This document shows positions 34,101 to 47,844 of a DNA stretch of 64,000 nt, piece by piece. Positions within the stretch are counted from its first letter, which is position 1. Each line of letters begins with the position of its first letter. The DNA lies in NCBI RefSeq assembly GCF_038561955.2, contig NZ_CP138333.2:496001-560000 (forward strand), given 5' to 3'. The notes beneath the pieces are model-generated. The model saw only the letters and a list, made by a program, of their open reading frames with translations, was not told the DNA's origin and ran no database searches. The translations under genes and the position numbers were made by a program. Source of the DNA: Salinicoccus sp. Bachu38 (lineage in GTDB: Bacteria > Bacillota > Bacilli > Staphylococcales > Salinicoccaceae).

Positions 34101-34691
34101 ATGGACCAGGGGAGGGGACACTTCGGCAAGGAGAAGATCATGCCGAACAGCATGCTCTTCTTCCCGGTCAGGGATCCGCTGCTCTCACTCGACGACGAAG
34201 CCGCCCTCGAGGTTGCAGAATCCGAACACAAGAAGCGCATGCGGCCAGATGGCGTATTCATCAATGAACATGAAGCATACGACAGCCAACTTGATGAAAC
34301 ATCCATCGGAATCCAGGGAATGCTTGCGGACCTGGATGATTTCAAGGCATACAACAGGTATCTGCCGATTTCCGTATCGAAGAACGGAAAGATCAATGCA
34401 CGGACAAAGAGCAAATACTTCAGTCCGGAGCTGTTCCGGCATTATGCCGACCGCATCATGGACATGTACAGGAATGCAACGGATGAGATTTATGGCGGTG
34501 AGGTCCTCGCGTCGCCGATGGCGACGGACGCCGGAAACACCCGGCTGGCATGTGAAATGTGCGACTTCAAGTCTGCATGCCACATCGATGCGCTGATGAA
34601 CCGCCAGGATATACGGAAGAATGAATTGGACGAGGAAGCAGTCAGCCTATTTGAAAGTGAGGTGTCCATCGATGGTCCAGTGGACAGATAA
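31182..34691 (+). CDS. addB: AddB (RexB) subunit of the AddAB helicase-nuclease
   Basis: A 1169-residue subunit of the double-strand-break resection complex (RecBCD analogue). The Walker A-like GISGTGKTQ has K14. The C-terminal RecB-family nuclease domain has D945-Y-K947 in LIDYKSS. The Fe-S staple is complete: C788 in FRCPF, then C1124, C1127 and C1133 in CEMCDFKSAC, with spacing like B. subtilis AddB. A GTG at 31173 opens the frame, but ATG 31182 lies eight bases after AAGGAG. It overlaps addA by 20 bp. As an Fe-S protein it depends on SufA/SufT-type assembly. Confidence 0.94.
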   Translation: MGINIWTGISGTGKTQRMFDEIDAITSEAPLGSSIYIITPTQNTLRYENIITNPTGQNPSVGSLRTAVFSFARLMWHVFNETGHSTRDALSESGHIMLLHKMMNEMKSEFDFYRDSAQYIKFSGKVLDMLSEFRAYRVSPDDFGRIETPSGRIRDKMHDLELIYRNWEQRITQLQIEDINLADQFIDLLYSDTPIRSLEDAVIYIDGFHNFTESEFALIQALETRVREINLLLTHQGTNKQLFRKTDSVIERMRYHMGDHRLSFEHFGEEFRRSERNGLIQVERYFDRSEDIYDYDGVIFTEAPNVLEEVNDVAREIESLVFDGKAYYTDIGVLYRDANYEPVLQSVFRRYGISYHIDQKVPMHSHPFIQFIMSILECYMRNYEFGAFMNVLKTGYLCEASERHYIDQLENFALERGLSGSALFDDEQFRYHTEVTDEGIRRVDKSEAYAGMIAFKNEVLGKLEKIFREFRKDGTVRDYINVIYDFIVDEGIIEVLAEEMKALDERNAIQTRDETEQAYNMFVRLLDDAYTVFDDEKVPFALFYETFIDGLKNAEFSLLPSTIDQVMVGSLDLSKVENKKYIFIIGLNRDVMPRESRNTEIISDEEKTVFEHADIELSPSSRTLAQDERFVFYLGVTRATEGLYLSWSGTLPSGEATKVSPFLEELMPGEARVKHYEYRRTAEYDRFNPSRLITSIESMEPLLHLKVREMMTAPVRRPEEFLELPEYRGWIEAYHVLMKERWHDVYPRLKRNLTYDNRADPLTREAAEALYTAEMNASVSRFESFFRCPFQHFSRYGLKLKVRKPYQVAPLELGNLYHEVLYDVVKSLDYTLLHPDARIREQVAESIERFSQAIQFGIFEHTGYYKSLKSRARDAIIKLLMFMKDIEALGHYRIADVELSFGFRDSPMEEVTLTSNDGYRIHLRGKIDRVDMYETKDGAYVNLIDYKSSTRSISREGVLNGLELQMMTYMHVLMDQGRGHFGKEKIMPNSMLFFPVRDPLLSLDDEAALEVAESEHKKRMRPDGVFINEHEAYDSQLDETSIGIQGMLADLDDFKAYNRYLPISVSKNGKINARTKSKYFSPELFRHYADRIMDMYRNATDEIYGGEVLASPMATDAGNTRLACEMCDFKSACHIDALMNRQDIRKNELDEEAVSLFESEVSIDGPVDR

Positions 34692-37600
34692 ACAGCTTGA
34701 AGCCATTGAATATGAAGGATCGGATGTGCTGGTAGCCGCAGCAGCGGGCAGCGGAAAGACGACGGTCCTGGTTGAACGCATCATCCGCAAGATCCTCATG
34801 GGCCGCTACAGCATCGACGAAGTATTCGTCGCCACCTTCACCAACATGAGCGCGCGGGACATGAAGGACAAGATCGAAAAGGCATTGCGCAAGGCGTATG
34901 GGGAGAAGCGGGATCCGGCCATCTACACCGAGATGCTCAAGCTGAAGGAGGCGCATATCTCCACACTCCACAGCTTCTGCCTGCACCTCATACAGATGCA
35001 CTACAATACGGTCGGCCTGTCCCCGGACATGCGGACGCTCGGGGATGTCGAGATGAAGATCCGCCTGGACCAGGTGATATCCAATGTGCTCGAATCCTAC
35101 TATGCGGAAGGGACGGAGGATTTCAACACGCTTTCGATGATGCTGTCGACCGACAAGAACAATGACGGGCTGCTGAATACGATCCGCGACCTGTACTATA
35201 CGGCCGTGGCAAGCCCCGATCCGGAAGGCTACCTGGAGGGGAACATCGACCAGTATCTGAATGAAGATCACCTGCAGGATATTCTGGATGCGCACAACCA
35301 CAACATAAAACTGAAGCTCGAAGCCCTGATGGCCGATATCGACCAGCTGCGCGACCACTATCATGTGGTGACGCATGAATCGATCAAGGAAACGCAGGTC
35401 CGGGATGCCTTCGATGCCCTCGAGGGACTCGGCCGCACCGTCATGCGGGCGATGGAGGAGAACCGGGGCGGGCGGCCGGTTGAACTGCCGCCGTTCGGTC
35501 TCAAGGATGGCCGCTCTGCATTCATCAGGAACATTGAAGACCCGGATGCCAAAGCGCAGCTGCTCGCAATCCAGAACCGGGTGAAGAAGCGGTACGCGGA
35601 AATCAGGGAAACTCCCGCCTATACGCTCCAGCGTGTAAGTGATGAACTCGCCCCTCTGAACGGCTACAGCAATACCCTGATCGATATCGTCGCAGAAGTC
35701 ATCACGCGATTCCGCAAACAGAAGCTCTCGCGCAATGAAATGGACTTCTCCGACTATGAACATTATGCACTGGCCATCCTCAATGCGGCTGATGGGGCGG
35801 TCCGTTCGATGTACCAGCAGCAGTTCAAGGAGATCATGATCGATGAATACCAGGACATCAACCGTGTCCAGGAAGCCATCATCCAGTCCCTGAAAAGCGG
35901 GGATGAAGCGACGGGCAACCTGTTCATGGTGGGGGATGTCAAACAGTCCATCTACAAATTCAGGCAGGCGGACCCATCCCTGTTCATCGAAAAATCCGAA
36001 CGCTTCCGTGAGCCCGGCAGCGGCAGGGTCATCAGCCTGAACCACAACTTCCGCTCCCGGGGGGAAGTGATCGACCTGACGAATACAGTATTTGAACGCA
36101 TCATGGACAGGGAAGTCGGAGAGGTGGAGTACGATGAGACACACCGCCTCGTCCAGGGAAACTACCTGGATACGGCACCACTCGCCTCGGAATGCCACAT
36201 CATCGAGGATGCCGAGGGCAAGGGGGAGGATGCGGAAATCCTCCATATCGTCCAGGTGGTGAAGCACCTCAGGAAATCGGGGGCGGACTACCGGGACATC
36301 GTGATACTGACACGGAATACCAGGGATAACGAAGCATACCGCAAGCTGCTCTCCGAAGCGGAACTGCCGGTGTTCGTCAACAACCGCTCCGGCTATCTCG
36401 ACACTCTGGAAATCCGTACGATGATCAGCCTCCTGTCCATCGTCGACAATCCGCTCCAGGATGATCACCTGGTCGGTGTCATGCGCCTGCCGATGTTCAA
36501 CTTCTCGGAGAATGATATCGCACTCATCCGGGCCGCGTCCGACCGGGAATACATGTACGAAGCCCTCGTCAGCTACGGGGGGCCGGCCCTCGTGATGAAG
36601 AAGATAGAAGAGTTCCTGGCCACGCTCCGGACGCTGCAGGACTATGCAAGATACATGAGTGTGCCGGAGTTGATCGATGAAATCTATCTGGAGCTCAACA
36701 TCCTGGAGTATTTCGCAGGCCTCAAGGGCGGCCTCACACGGCGTGCCAATCTGAACGGCTTTGTGGAGAAGGCGATGGATTTCGAGAAGATGTCCCACCT
36801 TTCCCTGTATGAATTCATCACCTACATCGACCGCATGATCCAGGATGGTCAGGATTTCGGGGAGGAGAACACGGTCTCCGATGATGCGGATACGCTCCGC
36901 GTAATGACGATCCATGCATCCAAGGGACTCGAATTCAACTACGTCATCTATGCCGGTCTGCACAGGCAGCTGAACATGATGGATGTCATGAAGAAGGTGA
37001 CGATCCATCCGGGTGGGGGCATCGCCTTCAAACGCTTCATACCGGAGCACCAGGTGCTCCTGCCGAGCATCCATGCCCAGGTCGTCAAACAGATGATCCA
37101 GCAGGAACGCATCAGTGAGGAGATGCGTCTGGTCTATGTGGCATTGACGCGGGCCATCGACCAGCTGATCATCCCGCTCGTCTACAAGGGGGAGATGAAG
37201 GAGAAATTCACCTACGAAGGCGGCAAGGTCCATGCAGACGACAGGCTCTCCATCCGCAGCATCCAGGATCTTCTGGCACCGGTGCTCGTCAATACGCAGA
37301 TGGATGCACTCGAGGTGCATAATATCGAGGAAGTGGAGGCAGAACCACAGGCCGTAGAATACACTTCCCTTGAAGAGCTGGAGGACTTGAAGATCAGCGG
37401 GAACCAGCTGCTGAAGGAACGCATCCTCCACCGGTATCCGCACAGGGAGGCGACCGAGACGGTATACAAGGAGTCCGTGACGGAAATCAAGCGCCGCAAC
37501 GAAACGCCGCCTGATGACAGTGCCGTCATCAGGCATGATCGTACGCCGAACTTCCGTGCACCGAACTTCCGCAACGAATCGCTCGATGCACCGGTTTTCG

Positions 37601-38115
37601 GGACGATGATGCACCAGATGATGATGCATCTGCTCAACCGCTACGATGCCCTGCGCACGCTGGATGAGGAAGAACAGGCGGCATTCATCGAACGGATGAT
37701 CTTCGAACAGACGGCGGACGACCCGCTGATCACCCCGGCGCACCAGAAGCAGATGATCCGGAACATCCACCAGTTCCTGGCGGATGACACGATGCGGCAG
37801 CTGCTCAGGGATCAGCAGTCGATCCATACGGAAATCCCGTTCATCATGAACCAGAAGGCCATCGGCTATTCCGGTTTCGACCGGCAGATGGTGCAGGGGA
37901 TCGTCGATGCGCTCCTCGAGATGGACGATGATTTCGTCATCATCGACTATAAGACGGACCGGGTGGCGCACACCGGTCTGAATGAAGCCGACCTCGTGGA
38001 AAAGTACCGTACGCAGATGGATATATACAGGCGCTCAATAATGCAGGCGCTCAGGAAAGATGTTACGGTATATCTATATTTCTTTGACTATGGAGCGATT
38101 AAATTTGATAACTGA
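34672..38115 (+). CDS. addA: AddA (RexA) helicase-nuclease subunit
   Basis: A 1147-residue UvrD/PcrA-type helicase fused to a RecB-family nuclease. Walker A VAAAAGSGKTT carries K29; helicase motifs FTNMSARDMKDKI, IDEYQDINRVQ, VGDVKQSIYKFRQADP and MTIHASKGLEFNYVI follow in order; the nuclease motif is D1092-Y-K1094 in VIIDYKTDR. Together with AddB it processes broken ends for RecA loading and recognises Chi. The frame extends upstream to 34621, but ATG 34672 follows GAGGTG by seven bases and matches the family N-terminus (WTDKQLEAIE). It overlaps the next gene as well. Confidence 0.95.
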   Translation: MVQWTDKQLEAIEYEGSDVLVAAAAGSGKTTVLVERIIRKILMGRYSIDEVFVATFTNMSARDMKDKIEKALRKAYGEKRDPAIYTEMLKLKEAHISTLHSFCLHLIQMHYNTVGLSPDMRTLGDVEMKIRLDQVISNVLESYYAEGTEDFNTLSMMLSTDKNNDGLLNTIRDLYYTAVASPDPEGYLEGNIDQYLNEDHLQDILDAHNHNIKLKLEALMADIDQLRDHYHVVTHESIKETQVRDAFDALEGLGRTVMRAMEENRGGRPVELPPFGLKDGRSAFIRNIEDPDAKAQLLAIQNRVKKRYAEIRETPAYTLQRVSDELAPLNGYSNTLIDIVAEVITRFRKQKLSRNEMDFSDYEHYALAILNAADGAVRSMYQQQFKEIMIDEYQDINRVQEAIIQSLKSGDEATGNLFMVGDVKQSIYKFRQADPSLFIEKSERFREPGSGRVISLNHNFRSRGEVIDLTNTVFERIMDREVGEVEYDETHRLVQGNYLDTAPLASECHIIEDAEGKGEDAEILHIVQVVKHLRKSGADYRDIVILTRNTRDNEAYRKLLSEAELPVFVNNRSGYLDTLEIRTMISLLSIVDNPLQDDHLVGVMRLPMFNFSENDIALIRAASDREYMYEALVSYGGPALVMKKIEEFLATLRTLQDYARYMSVPELIDEIYLELNILEYFAGLKGGLTRRANLNGFVEKAMDFEKMSHLSLYEFITYIDRMIQDGQDFGEENTVSDDADTLRVMTIHASKGLEFNYVIYAGLHRQLNMMDVMKKVTIHPGGGIAFKRFIPEHQVLLPSIHAQVVKQMIQQERISEEMRLVYVALTRAIDQLIIPLVYKGEMKEKFTYEGGKVHADDRLSIRSIQDLLAPVLVNTQMDALEVHNIEEVEAEPQAVEYTSLEELEDLKISGNQLLKERILHRYPHREATETVYKESVTEIKRRNETPPDDSAVIRHDRTPNFRAPNFRNESLDAPVFGTMMHQMMMHLLNRYDALRTLDEEEQAAFIERMIFEQTADDPLITPAHQKQMIRNIHQFLADDTMRQLLRDQQSIHTEIPFIMNQKAIGYSGFDRQMVQGIVDALLEMDDDFVIIDYKTDRVAHTGLNEADLVEKYRTQMDIYRRSIMQALRKDVTVYLYFFDYGAIKFDN

Positions 38116-39214
38116 CAGCACACGTTCAAGCATTATCCTCGGCATCCTGTTCTTCGGTGTACTGCTGATGAACGGCCTCTATTTCATGATGCCCTATGAA
38201 GCGTTGAACCCTTATGAATACTTGAGCGGCAGCAATCTGAGCACCTTCCAGGTGCTGGATATCTTCATCGGCGGAGCCATCGTGCCGCTTGTGGCCCTGT
38301 CCACAGGCTATCTCATCCATGCCTTCAGGCATTACGGCATCGGCAACCTTGCCAAAGTGGCGGCTTTCGTGCTGGCACTCGGCATCGTCCAGACTTTCTT
38401 CATCTTCGCCTTCGACTTCCTGCCCGGTCTGGCGCTGATGGCACTGGTTGCGCTGCTCTTCCTGAAGGCGCACTGGGCGGTATCCCTCATTTCGGCGATG
38501 CTGCTGTTCCTCTTCCATCTGACTGCCAACGTCCTTGTCGGCTTCTTTGCAAGCATCGGCTCGCCGACCGACATCATCTATACGGCCCTGCAGGATGTCC
38601 AGGAGTTCACGAGTGTCTTCAGGAGTACGGATTACTTCGCAATCATTGCACTGAACATCGAACTGTTCTCAAGAAATGTGATCAGTGAAATGTACGGGCT
38701 CCTCTTCACCGTGCTGCCATGGCTGCTTGTGGGCATCAGCCTCGGACAGCTCAATATTGTCCGCTTCATCCGGTCGAATCCGGTGATGCACATCATCCTC
38801 TTCGTCGTGCTCGCCGGCGGCGGAATGGCGGTCAAGATGATCCAGGTGCTGACACTCGGCAGCTACAGCGGCCGCCTTCTGGCAGAAAACTTCGGCGGGC
38901 CCGTACTCGCCCTCGGTTATTTCCTGCTGCTGATGTACCTTACGGTCGCCGTACCGCCTGCCATCCTGGAAGTGTTCAGGCGCACGGGCAGATATGCACT
39001 GACCCTGTATATCCTGTCCAACATCGTGTTCATGCTGATATTCTATGGAATTGGCGCCGGTCTGTATGGGGAAATGGAAATTTCCACCATGATTTGGACG
39101 GCACTCGTCGTCCATGTTTTCGTGGTGGTGCTCGCCACGGTCATGCACCGGTACCGGATCAGAAGCATCGAGGATTTATTTACGAATAATTCTGAAAATG
39201 GAATCAACAGATAG
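38090..39214 (+). CDS. Polytopic membrane protein, DUF418-like
   Basis: About 374 residues with roughly nine or ten hydrophobic segments. The C-terminal stretch ILEVFRRTGRYALTLYILSNIVFMLIFYGIGAGLYG resembles the DUF418/YeiB membrane family (GRxALTxYxxQS...FYGxGLGL). The start is uncertain: ATG 38090 lacks a ribosome site, while TTG 38105 has GGAG nine bases upstream. Either overlaps the end of addA, so it is probably co-translated. A membrane protein follows rexA in S. aureus too, as I recall. No function is known; the family is sometimes linked to transport or acyl transfer. Confidence 0.65.
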   Translation: MERLNLITDSTRSSIILGILFFGVLLMNGLYFMMPYEALNPYEYLSGSNLSTFQVLDIFIGGAIVPLVALSTGYLIHAFRHYGIGNLAKVAAFVLALGIVQTFFIFAFDFLPGLALMALVALLFLKAHWAVSLISAMLLFLFHLTANVLVGFFASIGSPTDIIYTALQDVQEFTSVFRSTDYFAIIALNIELFSRNVISEMYGLLFTVLPWLLVGISLGQLNIVRFIRSNPVMHIILFVVLAGGGMAVKMIQVLTLGSYSGRLLAENFGGPVLALGYFLLLMYLTVAVPPAILEVFRRTGRYALTLYILSNIVFMLIFYGIGAGLYGEMEISTMIWTALVVHVFVVVLATVMHRYRIRSIEDLFTNNSENGINR

Positions 39215-39262: not shown

Positions 39263-40165
39263 ATGAAATTTTTAACATTCGATTATGGGAATCATACGTA
39301 TTACGGCGTCAAAGTGAAGCGTGAGGAAAGTGTCTGGATTCTTCCGAAACTGTTTGAAGCGTTCGGGGACGAAGCGGATTATCCTAAAACCCTGCTTGAA
39401 GGCATTTCCAGATACCACACGCTGGATTTCCAGGAACATGTCCGAAAATTAGTGGAAAAAGCACAGAATTCAGGGGACGCCGACAAGTACAAGGCGCCTT
39501 TCAACGATATTACATTCCGTGCGCCGGTGACGCCGCCGAACAATGTGATCGCCTTTGGCAGGAACTACAAAAAGCACGCTGAAGAGCTGAACAATGAAGT
39601 GCAGAGCCTGTATGTATTCACGAAGGCGGCGACCAGCCTGGTCGGTGATGAGGCGACGATTCCGAACCATCAGGATATCACCAGCGAGCTGGATTACGAA
39701 GGGGAGCTCGGTGTCGTCATCGGAAAGCGCGCAGAAAAGATCCAGAGTTCCATGGCGCTGGATTATATATACGGCTACACGATCATCAACGATATCACTG
39801 CCCGCGACCTGCAGAAGGAGCACCATCAGGCCTTCCTTTCCAAGAGCCTGAAGGGCGGATGCCCGATGGGACCTTTCATCGTCACGAAGGATGAGTTGCC
39901 GAACCCTGAGCAGACGGCCATCGTGACCAAGGTCAACGGCGATATCCGACAGGATGGCAGCACCCGCGAGATGGTGTTGAAACTCGATGAACTGATCGCT
40001 GAAATCTCCAAATATGTCACGCTCGAGCCGGGCGACATCATCGCCACAGGTACACCAAGCGGCGTCGGTGCCGGCATGAACCCGCCGCAGTTCCTGAAGC
40101 CCGGGGATGAAGTCCGCGTATCCATCAATGGCATCGGCACATTGACGACATATATTGATAAGTAA
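39263..40165 (+). CDS. Fumarylacetoacetate hydrolase family protein
   Basis: A 300-residue cytosolic protein. The FAH C-terminal domain (about residues 85-298) shows [14 protein letters not shown], the metal ligands in [13 protein letters not shown] and [10 protein letters not shown], and [22 protein letters not shown]. Such enzymes act as acylpyruvate hydrolases or oxaloacetate decarboxylases with Mg2+ or Mn2+; the substrate here is not known. AAGGAGCG precedes the ATG. The same family occurs after rexA in staphylococci. Confidence 0.9.
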
Positions 40166-40219: not shown

Positions 40220-40594
40220 ATGATACACTTGCATCTGACATCGCTCGTCCTTGCGATCATCCTATTCATCATCACGTATAATTCGATCGATCGTCCGGAT
40301 GGCGAATCCAAGTATTCAAAAGCATTGCATATGGTCCTGAGACTGATCTATCTGATCATCCTGTTCACTGGTCTCATGCTGTTCCTGGACTTCAGCAGTG
40401 GCGACCAGATGATGTATGGACTCAAATTCCTTGCAGGTCTCATTACAATCGGCCTGATGGAGATGGCATTGATCAAACAGCGTAAAAAAGGTACAGGGCG
40501 CAACCTCGTCATCGCGCTGGTCATTTTCCTGGTCGTGACGATTGCACTTGGAATCTATTTACCGGCAGGCCCGTTGAGCGCATTGTTCGCATAA
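40220..40594 (+). CDS. YisL-like DUF1516 (UPF0344) membrane protein
   Basis: A 124-residue protein with four membrane helices (about 4-20, 38-60, 65-83 and 96-118). HLHLTSLVLAIILFIITYNSI and KALHMVLRLIYLIILFTGLML match the UPF0344/YisL family, function unknown. AAAGGAAG precedes the ATG. It follows the FAH gene by 54 bp and is followed by a terminator. Confidence 0.83.
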   Translation: MIHLHLTSLVLAIILFIITYNSIDRPDGESKYSKALHMVLRLIYLIILFTGLMLFLDFSSGDQMMYGLKFLAGLITIGLMEMALIKQRKKGTGRNLVIALVIFLVVTIALGIYLPAGPLSALFA

Positions 40595-40607: not shown

Positions 40608-40635
40608 AGGCACTCTTTTACAGGGTGCCTTTTTT
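40608..40635 (+). terminator. Intrinsic terminator after the YisL-like gene
   Basis: Arms AGGCAC and GTGCCT (plus weaker inner pairs), then a run of seven Ts. Confidence 0.72.
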
Positions 40636-40725
40636 CATGCAAATTTGTGAACGTTTATTGAAATGATGCTTTTTTCAAATTTTATCTAGTATACTGGCAG
40701 TATAAAAATAGAAGGTAGGATAGCA

Positions 40726-42138
40726 ATGAAGAGAATAATGATATATATGGCGGTTCTGCTCATGGGCATGTCCGTGTCGAACGGCGAAGCAGCGGCCCAG
40801 GAGGCAGATGAGGCACGGATCTATACGATTGTCGTCGACCGCTTCCTGAATGGAAATTCCGGCAATGACATCAATGTCACGGATGATGAAGATGCGCCAC
40901 TGCCATTCGGTGGGGACTTCGAGGGCATCCAGAACAACCTGGACTACATACAGGGCATGGGCTTCGATACGCTGATGCTTTCTCCGGTATTTGACAGGGC
41001 GGATGACGATTACCTCGGCTACGATGTTGAAAGCTACGGGGAGATCGAAGCGGCATTCGGTGGCGCAGAAGCATTCCAGAACCTGATCGACGCTGCACAT
41101 GAGAGGGATATGGAAGTAGTCGTCGATATGCCGGTCACCTCAACTGAGGGCTACGCGACACTCGCAAACCCGGTGCTGAACGATCTTCAGCAGAGCTACT
41201 ACGATATGATAGACGCCGAATTCATCGACCTGAACAACGCGGACAATCAGGCACGATACCAGCAGATGGCCCAGACATTCGTCGATGAATATGATGTCGA
41301 TGGGCTCAGCATGACCGTCGTCCAGGATGGCATCGACGCCGGCACTTTCATGCCGGAAGGTGTAACGACCTACGGCATCATTCCTGACGCGTCACTCTCT
41401 GCAGAAGGGTTCAGCCACATGAGTGATCCGTCCATGACGGACGCATTGGCGGAATCCTTCAGTACGACAGACAGGGAGATTCCTGCACATCCGACGGACG
41501 GCACGCTGCTGCTTGCCGACCACTGGTTCACAGACCGCTTCACGAAGCATGCGGTCGAAGAGAACATGTTCCCGGGCACACGCATCAGCCAGCTCACCGC
41601 CTATCTGTATGCATATCCGGGACCGATCGCCTTCCAGTATGGTACGGAAGTCGCCCTGAACGGTGACGATATTCCCCATGTGCACCGGCAGATGGACCTA
41701 TGGACCGATCAGGAAGTCGTGGATTACATTGAATCACTCCATGGTGTGATTTCCCAGCATCCAAACATGTTCGAGGGTGAGATGGATATCCTGAAGAATG
41801 AAGGGGGACACTATGTACAGAGATACCGTACTTCCGATGTCGACTTCATTTTGAATCTGAATGACACTTCCGTCACGGAAAATGTCGAGATCCCCATCGA
41901 ATCACAGGATGAAGGGAAGATGCTCAGCGGTCTCCTGATCGGTGACCTGCTTCGCAGTGGAGACATGGAAGGGGATGCTTTCCTGGCGGTACTGGACCGC
42001 GAAGAGGCGGAACTGTATGCAGTAATCGAGGAAAGAGGCTTCAATAACGGCTATATCTATGCCGGCCTCATCATCTTCGGCGGGTTCGGCATCTTCATCT
42101 GGCTCGTTGCGAGGAAAAGAAGACCGGGACAAGAATAG
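40726..42138 (+). CDS. Membrane-anchored alpha-amylase-like (GH13) protein with degenerate active site
   Basis: A 470-residue protein: signal peptide (1-24, GEAAAQEA cleavage region), a GH13-like TIM barrel (about 30-365), a C-terminal beta domain (about 366-435), one transmembrane helix (about 443-461) and a basic tail RKRRPGQE. IYTIVVDRFLNGNSGND, GGDFEGIQNNLDYIQGMGFDTLMLSPVF and LTAYLYAYPGPIAFQYGTEVAL place it clearly in the alpha-amylase superfamily. The catalytic signatures have decayed. Region I V-N-H reads V-T138-S139. In region II (DGxRxD) the Arg is S195 and the nucleophile Asp is T197. Region IV NHD reads H266-W267-F268 within DHWFTDRF. A Glu (E211) may remain at the acid/base site. 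It is probably a pseudo-enzyme facing the outside. AAGGTAGG precedes the ATG. A weak cre-like site lies near 40645-40659. Confidence 0.85.
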   Translation: MKRIMIYMAVLLMGMSVSNGEAAAQEADEARIYTIVVDRFLNGNSGNDINVTDDEDAPLPFGGDFEGIQNNLDYIQGMGFDTLMLSPVFDRADDDYLGYDVESYGEIEAAFGGAEAFQNLIDAAHERDMEVVVDMPVTSTEGYATLANPVLNDLQQSYYDMIDAEFIDLNNADNQARYQQMAQTFVDEYDVDGLSMTVVQDGIDAGTFMPEGVTTYGIIPDASLSAEGFSHMSDPSMTDALAESFSTTDREIPAHPTDGTLLLADHWFTDRFTKHAVEENMFPGTRISQLTAYLYAYPGPIAFQYGTEVALNGDDIPHVHRQMDLWTDQEVVDYIESLHGVISQHPNMFEGEMDILKNEGGHYVQRYRTSDVDFILNLNDTSVTENVEIPIESQDEGKMLSGLLIGDLLRSGDMEGDAFLAVLDREEAELYAVIEERGFNNGYIYAGLIIFGGFGIFIWLVARKRRPGQE

Positions 42139-43190: not shown

Positions 43191-44672
43191 ATGTCGGACT
43201 TTTTAAGTTATCTGAGTGGACTGGTATGGAACCAGTACTTCATTTATGGATTTCTGCTGATAGGCCTTGGATTTACAATCGCGACGAAATTTGTGCAGGT
43301 GACCCATCTCAGGGATATGGTGCGCCTGACATTCAGCAGGGACAGCTCGGAAAGCGGGATATCCTCGTTCCAGGCAATCTCCCTCTCACTCGGAAGCCGA
43401 GTGGGTACCGGAAACATCGCCGGGGTGGCAACCGCCATCGCACTTGGGGGCCCGGGGGCGGTCTTCTGGATGTGGCTGATGGCTTTCTTCGGTGCAGCGA
43501 CATCCTTCATCGAGGTCACACTCGCCCAAATATTCAAAAGCGAACAGAATGGCAAGTACAGGGGCGGTGCGCCCTACTATATCGACAAGGGCCTGGGATT
43601 CAGGAAATTTGCGGTTACATACGCCATTGTGGCGATCATCGCCAAAGGCCTGATGCTGATGAACATCCAGTCCAATACCGTCGCTCTCGGATTCGAGGAG
43701 GCCTTCGGCATCAACAGGATATTCGTCGGCCTGTTCCTTGTCGGTGTGCTGATACTGGTAGTGTACGGTGGGGTCAAAAGGATTGCCCGGACGGCAGAAG
43801 CCATCGTGCCTTTCATGGTCGTCGGCTATCTCGTGCTCTGCCTGGTTATCATCATAGCGAACTTCGGACAGATTCCAGAAGTGTTCACGCTGATATTCTC
43901 CAGCGCCTTCGGAGCCCAGGCGACATTCGGCGGGATGGTCGGATCCGCCATCGCCTGGGGCGTCCAGCGCGGCTTCTTCTCCAATGCGGCAGGCTCCGGT
44001 GGTGAGACATTCGAAGGGGCGGCAGCGGAAGTCTCCCACCCGGCGAAGCAGGGGCTTGTGCAGAGCTTCGCAGTCTACATGGACACCTGGGTCATCTGTA
44101 CGATGACGGCCTTCGTGATACTGATCACCGGCATGTACAATGTCGAGGAAGCAGGCGTCAGCAATGTGCCCGGTGTGGTCGCAGGACCTGCCAATGTCCA
44201 GCTTGCGATAGACAGCGTCTTTACAGGATTCGGCAGCGCCTTCCTGGCCATTGCCCTCCTGTTCTTCTGTTTCACGACGATGCTTTCATACTACTATAAG
44301 GCAGAGACAAGCCTGATGTATCTGAACTCCATCAAAAGGATTCCTCTGATGGACAGCCTGCTCAAATTCGGCATCATCGTCTTTGCACTGATAGGCAGCA
44401 TCGTTTCCGCTGAAAACGCATGGACAATCGGAGACATCGGCCTTGGCAGTATGGGCTACCTGAACGTCATCGCCATCGTCCTTCTGGCAAGAGTGTCACT
44501 GAAAGCGCTGAAGGATTACGATGAGCAGAAGAAGGCGGGCCTCGATCCCGTCTTCGATCCGGTAAAGCTCGGCATCAGGAACGCAGACTTCTGGGAGCAC
44601 CAAAATCCTTATATCGACAAGAAAGAGGATGGAAATAAAAATTCCAGAAGCGATGAAAATCGAAGTGAATAG
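43191..44672 (+). CDS. Alanine/glycine:cation symporter (AGCS family), first paralogue
   Basis: A 493-residue Na+- or H+-coupled transporter of alanine or glycine with about 11 membrane helices. Family signatures: SLGSRVGTGNIAGVATAIALGGPGAVFWMW, FIEVTLAQIFK, YRGGAPYYIDKGLGFRKFAVTYAI, AFVILITGMYN and FCFTTMLSYYYKAETSLMYL. The GSRVGTGNIAGVA segment and the helix SAIAWGVQRGFFSNAAGSG line the substrate and Na+ sites in the family. A GGGGGAA ribosome site precedes the ATG. A strong terminator follows, then a close paralogue. The preceding leader carries a hairpin. Confidence 0.93.
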   Translation: MSDFLSYLSGLVWNQYFIYGFLLIGLGFTIATKFVQVTHLRDMVRLTFSRDSSESGISSFQAISLSLGSRVGTGNIAGVATAIALGGPGAVFWMWLMAFFGAATSFIEVTLAQIFKSEQNGKYRGGAPYYIDKGLGFRKFAVTYAIVAIIAKGLMLMNIQSNTVALGFEEAFGINRIFVGLFLVGVLILVVYGGVKRIARTAEAIVPFMVVGYLVLCLVIIIANFGQIPEVFTLIFSSAFGAQATFGGMVGSAIAWGVQRGFFSNAAGSGGETFEGAAAEVSHPAKQGLVQSFAVYMDTWVICTMTAFVILITGMYNVEEAGVSNVPGVVAGPANVQLAIDSVFTGFGSAFLAIALLFFCFTTMLSYYYKAETSLMYLNSIKRIPLMDSLLKFGIIVFALIGSIVSAENAWTIGDIGLGSMGYLNVIAIVLLARVSLKALKDYDEQKKAGLDPVFDPVKLGIRNADFWEHQNPYIDKKEDGNKNSRSDENRSE

Positions 44673-44951: not shown

Positions 44952-46457
44952 ATGGAGGCGTTTTTAAGCTGGTTGAGTGGTATGATATGGAACCAGTATT
45001 TCATATATGCATTTCTGATCATCGGGTTGGGATTCACCATCGCCACCGGGTTCGTCCAGGTGACCCAACTGAAGGATATGGCAAAATTGACATTCAAGAG
45101 GAATGAATCGAAAAGCGGGATATCCTCCTTTCAGGCGATTACACTGTCACTCGGAAGCCGGGTGGGCACAGGAAATATCGCTGGGGTTGCGACGGCAATC
45201 ACTCTGGGAGGGCCGGGGGCGCTGTTCTGGATGTGGGTCATGGCATTTTTTGGAGCGGCCACATCATTCATCGAGGTGACCCTCGCCCAGATTTATAAGA
45301 ATAAGCAGAATGGCAGCTACAGGGGCGGCGCCCCATTCTATATCGACAAGGGCCTCGGATTCAGGAAATTTGCGGTCACATATGCCATCGTGGCGATCAT
45401 CGCAAAGGGGTTCATGATGATGAATATACAATCCAACACGGCCGCGCTCGGCTTTGAAGAGGCATTCGGCATCCATCGGGCGTTCATCGGAGTGTTCCTT
45501 GTCGCTGCGCTTGGCCTGGTCGTATTCGGCGGGGTCAAACGGATTGCCAAAACAGCAGAAACGATCATCCCCTTCATGGTCGTCGGCTACCTTCTGCTGT
45601 GTGCCATCATCATTACGGTCAATTTCTCCCTGATTCCCGATGTATTCACGCTCGTGGTATCCAGTGCATTTGGTGCAGAAGCCACATTCGGCGGTCTGGT
45701 GGGCTCCGCCATCGCCTGGGGTGTGCAGCGCGGGTTCTTCTCGAACGCTGCAGGCTCCGGCGGCGAAACGTTCGAAGGGGCGGCGGCGGAAGTCTCCCAC
45801 CCGGCGAAGCAGGGGCTTGTGCAGAGCTTTGCGGTCTATATGGATACTTGGATCATCTGTTCGATGACCGGTTTTGTGATACTTATTACTGGAATGTTCA
45901 ATGTGGAAGCGGCAGGGGTGAGCAACATCCCGGATGTGACGGCGGGACCGGCCAACGTCCAGTTCGCCATAGACAGCGTCTTCCAGGGATGGGGCAGCGC
46001 CTTCCTGGCCATCGCTCTCCTGTTCTTCTGCTTTACGACGATGCTTTCATACTATTATAAGGCTGAGACCAGCCTGATGTACCTGAATTCCATAAAGGAC
46101 ATGCCGTGGACACTGAACGTGCTCAAACTGGGCATCCTCGTCTTTGCCCTGGTCGGCAGCATCGTTTCCGCCGAAGCGGCCTGGACGCTCGGGGATATTG
46201 GCCTCGGGAGCATGGCATACCTGAATATCATCGGCATCACCCTGCTGTCCAAAGTGGCCCTCAGGACACTTTCGGACTATAAGGCCCAGAAGAAAGCAGG
46301 CCGGGACCCGGTCTTCGACCCGGTGGAACTGGGCATTGAAAATGCCGATTTCTGGGAAAAGAAGACTTATGAAAAAGAGGAGGAAGAGGAAAAGGTATAT
46401 ACCGTTCCCAAATCGGACGGCAAAGCGAAATATGGCATGCCGAAGAATGGCTACTGA
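44952..46457 (+). CDS. Alanine/glycine:cation symporter (AGCS family), second paralogue
   Basis: A 501-residue transporter, collinear with the preceding gene and very similar along its whole length; long stretches such as AAGSGGETFEGAAAEVSHPA are identical. Family motifs GSRVGTGNIAGVATAI, YRGGAPFYIDKGLGFRKF and FCFTTMLSYYYKAETSLMYL are intact. The C-terminal tail is longer and more charged (KKTYEKEEEEEKVY). GGAGGCAAAGC precedes the ATG. It has its own 245-bp structured leader and a strong terminator, so it is a separately regulated duplicate. Confidence 0.93.
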   Translation: MEAFLSWLSGMIWNQYFIYAFLIIGLGFTIATGFVQVTQLKDMAKLTFKRNESKSGISSFQAITLSLGSRVGTGNIAGVATAITLGGPGALFWMWVMAFFGAATSFIEVTLAQIYKNKQNGSYRGGAPFYIDKGLGFRKFAVTYAIVAIIAKGFMMMNIQSNTAALGFEEAFGIHRAFIGVFLVAALGLVVFGGVKRIAKTAETIIPFMVVGYLLLCAIIITVNFSLIPDVFTLVVSSAFGAEATFGGLVGSAIAWGVQRGFFSNAAGSGGETFEGAAAEVSHPAKQGLVQSFAVYMDTWIICSMTGFVILITGMFNVEAAGVSNIPDVTAGPANVQFAIDSVFQGWGSAFLAIALLFFCFTTMLSYYYKAETSLMYLNSIKDMPWTLNVLKLGILVFALVGSIVSAEAAWTLGDIGLGSMAYLNIIGITLLSKVALRTLSDYKAQKKAGRDPVFDPVELGIENADFWEKKTYEKEEEEEKVYTVPKSDGKAKYGMPKNGY

Positions 46458-46462
46458 CAGAC

Positions 46463-46502
46463 AGAATGAAAAGCCCCTCCGCTCGGAGGGGCTTTTCATT
46501 CT
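46463..46502. terminator. Bidirectional terminator between the second symporter and cdr
   Basis: Perfect 19-bp arms (AGAATGAAAAGCCCCTCCG and its complement) with a CT loop. The internal A and T tracts serve both convergent units. It overlaps the cdr stop codon. Confidence 0.9.
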
Positions 46503-47844
46503 ATTCATGCAGCTTTTTCATTTTCTCTATCGACTTGTATCCCACCATGTTGAGCACGCTTTTCGGGCTGGAGTATGGTGGGGAATAGGCGACTTCAATG
46601 TTGGCGAGGTCCATGGCAGTTCCTCCGAGACGGATGTGGGCCGACAGGATGTCGATACGCTTGTCGACGCCTTCGGTGCCGACGACGACGGCACGCAGTA
46701 TCTTGCCATCCGCTTTGCCGACATAGGCGCGGACATGGATCGGTACGCTGTCCGACATGTATCCGGCCTTGTTCTTCTGCCTATGATCGACAATGAAGTG
46801 CGGATAGTCCAAAAGCTCCGGCACCGTCAGTCCGAGGGTGGCGATATCATAGTCGAAGAAGCGCATGATGTTGGTGCCGAGCAGCCCTTCGAAGCAGACC
46901 GAGCTGTCTCCGCTGATCTGGTTGCTGATGACATATGCCATCCTATGGGCGCCCCACGCAAGCGCAACATGGACCGGACGGTCGACATGGTGGTAGTTCG
47001 TTTCGATCGCATCCCCGACAGCATACACATTTTCCCTGTTGGTACTGCCGTGCTTATCGGTGCAGATATAGCCATCTTCATTCAATGTTATGCCCGAGCC
47101 CTCGAGGAAATCGGTGCGCGGTGTAATGCCGATGCCCGCGATGATGATCGGCGCTTCGATCTCCTCGCCGTTCGAGAGGGTCGCAGTATCCCCGTCGACT
47201 TCAACAATTTCCGTATCAAGTTTCACGCCGACACCGCGGGACTTCAGCTCCTCCATGAAGAAATCGCTCATGTCCGGCTCGAGTGGGCGGTAGATTTCTG
47301 TCTCCCGGTGTACCAGCGTCACCTCGATGCCACGATGCACAAGGTTCTCGGTCATTTCAAGGCCGATGTAACCTGCACCTACGACGACCGCGCGAGTGAC
47401 ATTCTTCCGCTCGATATGGGCCATGATGGCATCAAGGTCCTCCAGTGAGTGGAGGACGAAGGCCTGTGGTACATCGATCAGTGCAGGGACAAGGCGGGGG
47501 GAACTGCCGGGGGAGAGCACAAGATAATCATATTCCGCATCGAAAGTGCGGCCATTCCTGATATCCTTCACCTGGACCGTCCTGTTCTCCGTATCGACAC
47601 CAGTCACCTGGTGATGGGTTTTGACGGTGACATTGCGCTTCCCGAAACTTTCGGGCGTCGCTGCGACCAGCTGGTCGCGTTCCTCGACTTCACCGCCGAT
47701 ATGGTAGGGGAGTCCGCAGTTGCCGTAGCTGATATCACGGCCCTTTTCATAGATGGTGATGTCAATTTCCGGATCGATCCGCCTGAGCTGGGCGGCTGTC
47801 GTCGCCCCTCCGGCCACACCGCCCACAATAATAACTTTTGCCAT
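46501..47844 (-). CDS. cdr: Coenzyme A-disulfide reductase
   Basis: A 447-residue flavoprotein of the pyridine nucleotide-disulfide oxidoreductase family that reduces CoA disulfide with NADPH; CoA is the main low-molecular thiol of staphylococci. The FAD motif VIIVGGVAGGATTAAQLRR (4-22), the single catalytic C43 in SYGNCGLPY, the NAD(P)H motif VVVGAGYIGLEMTENL and VYAVGDAIE are present. The C-terminal AYSPPYSSPKSVLNM contains the tyrosine region used in catalysis. AAGGAGTG precedes the ATG. It begins 2 bp after degV. Confidence 0.92.
   Translation of the reverse strand: MAKVIIVGGVAGGATTAAQLRRIDPEIDITIYEKGRDISYGNCGLPYHIGGEVEERDQLVAATPESFGKRNVTVKTHHQVTGVDTENRTVQVKDIRNGRTFDAEYDYLVLSPGSSPRLVPALIDVPQAFVLHSLEDLDAIMAHIERKNVTRAVVVGAGYIGLEMTENLVHRGIEVTLVHRETEIYRPLEPDMSDFFMEELKSRGVGVKLDTEIVEVDGDTATLSNGEEIEAPIIIAGIGITPRTDFLEGSGITLNEDGYICTDKHGSTNRENVYAVGDAIETNYHHVDRPVHVALAWGAHRMAYVISNQISGDSSVCFEGLLGTNIMRFFDYDIATLGLTVPELLDYPHFIVDHRQKNKAGYMSDSVPIHVRAYVGKADGKILRAVVVGTEGVDKRIDILSAHIRLGGTAMDLANIEVAYSPPYSSPKSVLNMVGYKSIEKMKKLHE

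Follow-up and report, generated by a model that had tools for sequence, protein, structure and literature searches.

What becomes of a glycoside hydrolase fold once its catalytic residues are lost? 4F2hc and rBAT raise this question, and it is raised again by a gene at positions 40,726 to 42,138 (+ strand) of the window, by which we mean the whole stretch of DNA analysed here, 64,000 nucleotides long. The gene encodes a 470-aa protein with a GH13 fold that lacks the catalytic residues and is predicted to be membrane-anchored, and we refer to it as the pseudo-amylase. Since it matches alpha-amylase models, it would readily be annotated as an alpha-amylase. An earlier note on this DNA had proposed a retained non-catalytic role and not decay, a proposal that is favoured by presence across the order, purifying selection, invariant replacement residues and a division of dead and intact copies by locus.

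The encoded protein and its former active site

The reading frame runs for 470 codons without interruption and is preceded by a ribosome-binding-site-like AGAAGGTAGG 5′ of the ATG (40,710 to 40,719, +, read from the sequence); the earlier note had described both features and had also recognised the GH13 scaffold. Pfam assigned the protein to Alpha-amylase (E 7.9e-24, best stretch residues 35 to 135) and found a domain C, Alpha-amylase_C_2 (PF22026, E 4e-8), at residues 351 to 431 (41,776 to 42,018, +). In a profile search the closest solved structures were 5a2b, 5a2a and 4e2o (E 1.7e-52 to 1.8e-45), which match in two pieces, one at each end, with the middle unaligned. The two named loci among the matches are those of Salinicoccus luteus (92%) and S. 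cyprini (75%). Sequence profiles align over the barrel and domain C, and AlphaFold2 models, for which the input was three sequences, have mean pLDDT values of 36.1 (full length) and 37.0 (residues 27 to 377).

Hydropathy predicts both a signal peptide and a C-terminal membrane anchor, as had been claimed. The N-terminal hydrophobic stretch (residues 4 to 22, mean 1.34) is followed by AAAQ, giving a predicted signal peptide of residues 1 to 24 (40,726 to 40,797, +). The C-terminal helix, at about residues 443 to 461 (42,052 to 42,108, +; 444 to 462 by the hydropathy stretch), is the strongest hydrophobic stretch of the protein (mean 2.24) and is followed by RKRR. Because of this combination of signal peptide and C-terminal hydrophobic helix with RKRR, the barrel would lie outside the membrane. 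The protein is strongly acidic, with 85 Asp and Glu to 23 Lys and Arg, as expected for an exported protein of a salt-loving organism, and it contains zero cysteines.

We aligned 19 of the 57 distinct homologues from the order with eight catalytically intact relatives using hhalign, which gave 460 columns at E 3.7e-74 and an alignment that is clear in the strands. The GH13 triad, an Asp nucleophile, a Glu acid/base and an Asp stabiliser on strands 4, 5 and 7, is replaced in the window protein by T197, about P220 and F268, the second of these lying in a gappy stretch where the alignment is less certain. The remnant of region I (residues 134 to 139, D-M-P-V-T-S; 41,125 to 41,142, +) keeps the Asp column as D134 and has T138-S139 in place of N-H, and that of region II (residues 192 to 201, including Q200; 41,299 to 41,328, +) has S195 for the Arg and T197 for the nucleophile. 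Region III, with its less certain column, falls at residues 217 to 222 (41,374 to 41,391, +). In region IV (residues 265 to 273; 41,518 to 41,544, +), N-H-D has become H266-W267-F268, with F268 in the column of the transition-state Asp. The replacements of N-H, Arg, nucleophile and N-H-D that the earlier note had read from the sequence fall in these same columns; the note did not mention the acid/base Glu.

The loops between these regions have also changed. Judged by region spacing, the domain B stretch (residues 140 to 190; 41,143 to 41,295, +) is shortened: regions I and II are 58 residues apart, compared with 71 to 73 in the eight intact relatives, and regions II and IV are 73 apart, compared with 99 in the intact proteins. 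The extent varies among dead copies, as the spacing of regions II and IV is still 94 to 99 in L086, L113, L135 and L138, and regions I and II are only 24 residues apart in L115 and L116 (genomes G199 and G158), where domain B is nearly lost. A protein that lacks the triad, the Arg, the N-H pair and part of domain B is very unlikely to hydrolyse by the GH13 mechanism.

Distribution and selection

Of the 157 genomes surveyed in the order, 57 carry a full-length or nearly full-length homologue: 32 of the 33 genomes of the window's family (f1), the single genome of f2, and 24 of 24 in genera g10 to g13 of f4, a count that includes one homologue clipped by a contig end (G018). The gene is thus kept in 57 of the 58 genomes of these groups, and the sole miss, G010, is an assembly 81% complete in 250 contigs. 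No pseudo-amylase was found in the 84 genomes of g14, presumably Staphylococcus, where what matched were short pieces of other GH13 proteins, or in the 15 genomes of f3, which are presumably Gemella-like; two scans of viral contigs likewise returned zero relatives. Because it is missing from 84 of 84 g14 genomes, the gene is dispensable, which counts against reading it as a kept scaffold.

Neither a nucleophile Asp nor a transition-state Asp occurs in any of the 57 distinct order proteins, position 198 is Asp in none of them, and the acid/base Glu column is variable. D134, P136, S195, Q200, D265 and F268 are invariant (57/57), and R271 is counted among the invariant polar residues. Position 197 itself is Tyr in 20 proteins, Asn in 14, Phe in 11, Thr in 6 and Met in 6. 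The substitutions first read in the window protein are therefore conserved across homologues as regards loss of the nucleophile, S195 and F268, with a varying residue at 197. On this sequence evidence, the window protein and the order-wide family would be unable to use the GH13 mechanism as known. Mean column identity in the order is 74% in the former active-site segments and 58% in the rest of the barrel; the corresponding values in family f6 are 66% and 60%, and this conservation may be partly structural. Family f6 keeps Arg195 in 30 of 33 proteins (Lys in 3), has Thr, Gln or Ser at the nucleophile and is variable at 268. Since these residues differ from those of the order, the site has been altered in different ways in the two large dead branches.

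The pseudo-amylase is under strong purifying selection: within the genus, pairwise dN/dS is 0.053 to 0.182 in those listed pairs for which dS is defined, and saturation affects some pairs. If the gene were a functionless relic in decay, this would account for the lost catalytic residues and loops, and for two g14 loci in which no remnant of the gene is visible between yisL and the next gene. We consider this very improbable, given that frames are open in the full-length order matches listed, that dN/dS is far below 1, and that the groups described above keep both the gene and its invariant replacement residues. Because homologues are order-wide, all 57 lack the nucleophile, S195, Q200 and F268 do not vary and dN/dS is low, the state of the window gene is not local decay; the selection signal has largely refuted the decay reading.

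The same constraint could instead reflect a protein that is still an enzyme, with a rebuilt or aberrant active site that acts on another glycan or by other chemistry. The constrained former active-site segments and the invariant polar residues D134, S195, Q200, D265 and R271 would fit this idea, and BmaN1 provides a precedent. Like the pseudo-amylase, BmaN1 is a BaqA relative with catalytic residues missing; Sarian et al. 2017 (PMC5347038) report amylase activity for it with an aberrant triad of Lys202-Asp203, Glu231 and His294, a report that also weighs against a non-catalytic reading. However, BmaN1 keeps Glu231 and the Asp after the nucleophile position, and the pseudo-amylase keeps neither, having T197-V198, about P220 and F268 at these positions. 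In addition, position 197 is variable and the cleft-forming domain B is shortened. We therefore regard an altered enzyme as unlikely, and prefer to read the pseudo-amylase as non-hydrolytic.

Dead and intact copies by locus and by descent

A class-wide search of 398 genomes at a cut-off of E <= 1e-25 gave matches in 82. Of these, 72 lie outside the order, and we examined at least one copy from each of the 72. We typed loci by their neighbours, a sugar operon being defined by a solute-binding protein, a transport permease and a LacI regulator according to the Pfam matches of the neighbouring genes; 31 copies are untyped, and L163 (a duplicate of L130) and L145_1 (a different GH13 protein) were excluded from the count. 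In sugar-ABC/LacI (mal) operons, Asp/Glu/Asp is kept in all 24 typed copies. Beside yisK and/or yisL, by contrast, none of 68 copies is intact, 63 having lost all three positions and five having lost two; 35 of the 68 come from the order. The five that keep one catalytic residue are a point against the non-catalytic reading. Copies at other loci are also without an intact triad (0/9; six lost three positions, one lost two and two lost one), and two of these nine, L051 and L059, sit at contig ends. One genome, G441, carries both kinds, a dead copy (L080, identical to L120) and an intact one (L162). This sharp division by locus lends itself to comparison, down to a pair of dead and intact paralogues within one genome, for asking what the glycoside hydrolase fold does after catalysis is lost. 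A further aberrant triad was seen in L145 (3040 to 4575, genome G234), a GH13_45-type protein outside any typed operon in which HED places His at the nucleophile and the Glu and third Asp are kept.

Trees without an outgroup place the eight intact proteins in one clade, and with 45 sequences they separate 31 dead copies from 14 others by one branch with support 100, L145 (one position lost) being counted as active. The rooted tree holds 76 sequences, with 15 of the 57 order proteins kept and 16 others dropped as near-duplicates, and its outgroup consists of three distant GH13 proteins with long branches. Here the intact amylases are basal and the main dead clade of 51 sequences hangs on one branch (support 97), and three dead copies from family f32 (L086, L135 and L151) are placed among the intact ones. 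One loss suffices for the main dead clade, and a second loss is possible; because the outgroup-rooted tree puts the f32 copies among intact proteins, it is not certain that all dead copies arose once. If that tree is true, catalysis would have been lost repeatedly beside yisL, and selection at this locus would then favour dead amylases. Such repetition is not needed by the tree built without an outgroup.

Neighbours, relatives and a possible role

Upstream of the pseudo-amylase, all on the + strand, lie a helicase-nuclease that we take to be AddA-like (34,621 to 38,115), a DUF418 membrane protein (38,060 to 39,214), a YisK-like fumarylacetoacetate hydrolase family protein (39,263 to 40,165) and a YisL-like protein (DUF1516; 40,220 to 40,594), assigned by locus comparison and, for the last three, by Pfam. 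This block, which begins with addA, is kept at many loci, in groups ranging from the genus of the window out to family f6, with yisK and yisL as conserved neighbours and DUF418 in many loci but not all. Its synteny is better read as vertical descent. Where yisL is directly upstream, the gap to the pseudo-amylase is 27 to 398 bp. In the window this gap contains a terminator-like hairpin (40,608 to 40,630, +), 1 such hairpin being found in the region versus 2.8 expected by chance. The pseudo-amylase gene is probably transcribed alone.

We considered two of these neighbours as obligatory partners and rejected both. YisK persists in 84 of 84 g14 genomes without a pseudo-amylase, and a yisK search at E <= 1e-40 came back empty for the f2 genome. 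In g10, g11 and g13 the place between addA and yisK that DUF418 takes in other genera is occupied by a 301- to 347-aa protein without a Pfam match (for example L042, 2315 to 3346). According to a review (PMC12372405), the target of YisK in B. subtilis is Mbl, and our analysis gives no evidence linking the pseudo-amylase to this action. In most of the wide loci of the order, the gene after the pseudo-amylase encodes a disulphide oxidoreductase. The window has this gene at 46,501 to 47,844, separated from the pseudo-amylase by a short-chain dehydrogenase and two tandem, similar sodium:alanine symporter-like genes (43,191 to 44,672 and 44,952 to 46,457; Pfam on the first only), all of which are missing from wide loci of the same genus. 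The symporters were rejected as partners of the kind that 4F2hc has, since none adjoins the pseudo-amylase in those wide loci.

The nearest known relatives are the GH13_45 amylases (5a2a, 5a2b and 4e2o; BaqA), whose features are described in PMC11448133 and PMC11239784. The 460 aligned columns cover the barrel, domain C and the hydrophobic C-terminal segment. Unlike the pseudo-amylase, however, these enzymes keep Asp/Glu/Asp, N-H, the Arg, a longer domain B and a W-W pair (AKWWIKE in L132, AQTFVDE in the window protein), and the intact copies in operons adjoin a sugar-type ABC transporter and a LacI regulator. The LPDlx motif of CSR-V reads LPDLA in L132 and FIDLN in the pseudo-amylase, with D and L kept and P lost. 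The C-terminal segment, some 30 residues long and bearing conserved aromatics, is present, with F439, Y443, F451, F454 and F457. This "aromatic motif", thought to bind starch, overlaps the hydrophobic helix in intact and in dead proteins alike; as the two coincide, the motif may be mainly a membrane anchor. For BmaN1, PMC11448133 places a TM helix in the C-terminal segment.

Aberrant or dead GH13_45 relatives have been partly known since 2017, as PMC5347038 mentions seven (Nos 28-34) with all three triad positions substituted without obvious regularity. In the open-licence literature searched, we did not find an order-wide dead family under selection and divided from intact paralogues by locus, nor any description of a pseudo-amylase at a yisL locus or in Staphylococcaceae. 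Elsewhere in GH13, PMC11239784 mentions GH13_48 members without catalytic residues and names rBAT and 4F2hc as non-enzymatic.

The heavy chains of heteromeric amino acid transporters, 4F2hc and rBAT, suggest by analogy that the pseudo-amylase could be a bacterial counterpart whose dead amylase ectodomain and single helix stabilise or place a polytopic membrane protein. As described in PMC8537225, they are single-helix membrane proteins with a GH13 ectodomain, and 4F2hc has no triad, no domain B (reduced in the pseudo-amylase) and no proven glycan binding. This shared outline, together with the small or polytopic membrane proteins YisL and DUF418 upstream in many loci, speaks for a counterpart. 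We nevertheless judge it improbable, as no obligatory partner emerged: yisK occurs in all 84 g14 genomes and yisL in both g14 loci examined (L164 and L165) without the pseudo-amylase, DUF418 is not at the locus in three genera, and AgcS symporters adjoin only in this window. The architecture differs too, with a C-terminal helix and a signal-peptide-like N-terminus in place of an N-terminal helix, and without a cysteine for the covalent link to an SLC7 light chain. The kin of 4F2hc are oligo-1,6-glucosidases, and those of the pseudo-amylase are GH13_45 amylases. If the counterpart were real, bacteria would have evolved, separately from animals, a 4F2hc-like dead-amylase scaffold or chaperone of an envelope machine.

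With moderate confidence, we favour the reading that a membrane-anchored amylase of GH13_45 type was duplicated long ago and that this copy has been retained in the envelope, where it would bind or act as a scaffold without hydrolysing. This builds on what the sequences show: the sequence state, conservation, purifying selection, the division by locus and the hydropathy signals for export and anchoring. We hypothesize that an amylase with a C-terminal anchor, like those in sugar ABC-transporter operons today, was duplicated and that one duplicate ended up behind yisL in the addA-yisK-yisL block. There the three catalytic residues (nucleophile, acid/base and transition-state stabiliser) would have been lost along with sugar-holding residues, presumably after duplication, and the loops walling the cleft would have shrunk. 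The product would be exported and held by its C-terminal helix on the external face of the membrane. We infer that it is non-hydrolytic, and the constraint on its altered site points to binding at the cleft face. It most likely acts by such binding, with glycans of the wall or capsule and other proteins of the envelope as candidate targets, for which it could be a receptor or scaffold.

Two smaller observations concern gene and protein boundaries. The DUF418 ORF as listed begins within the end of addA, and nine listed homologous matches have one in-frame TAA over the aligned span, so the true DUF418 start may be further downstream. L064 (876 to 7250, genome G001), which we excluded from the family set, is a protein of 2124 aa; its amylase-like segment shares 47% identity with residues 18 to 144 of the window protein.
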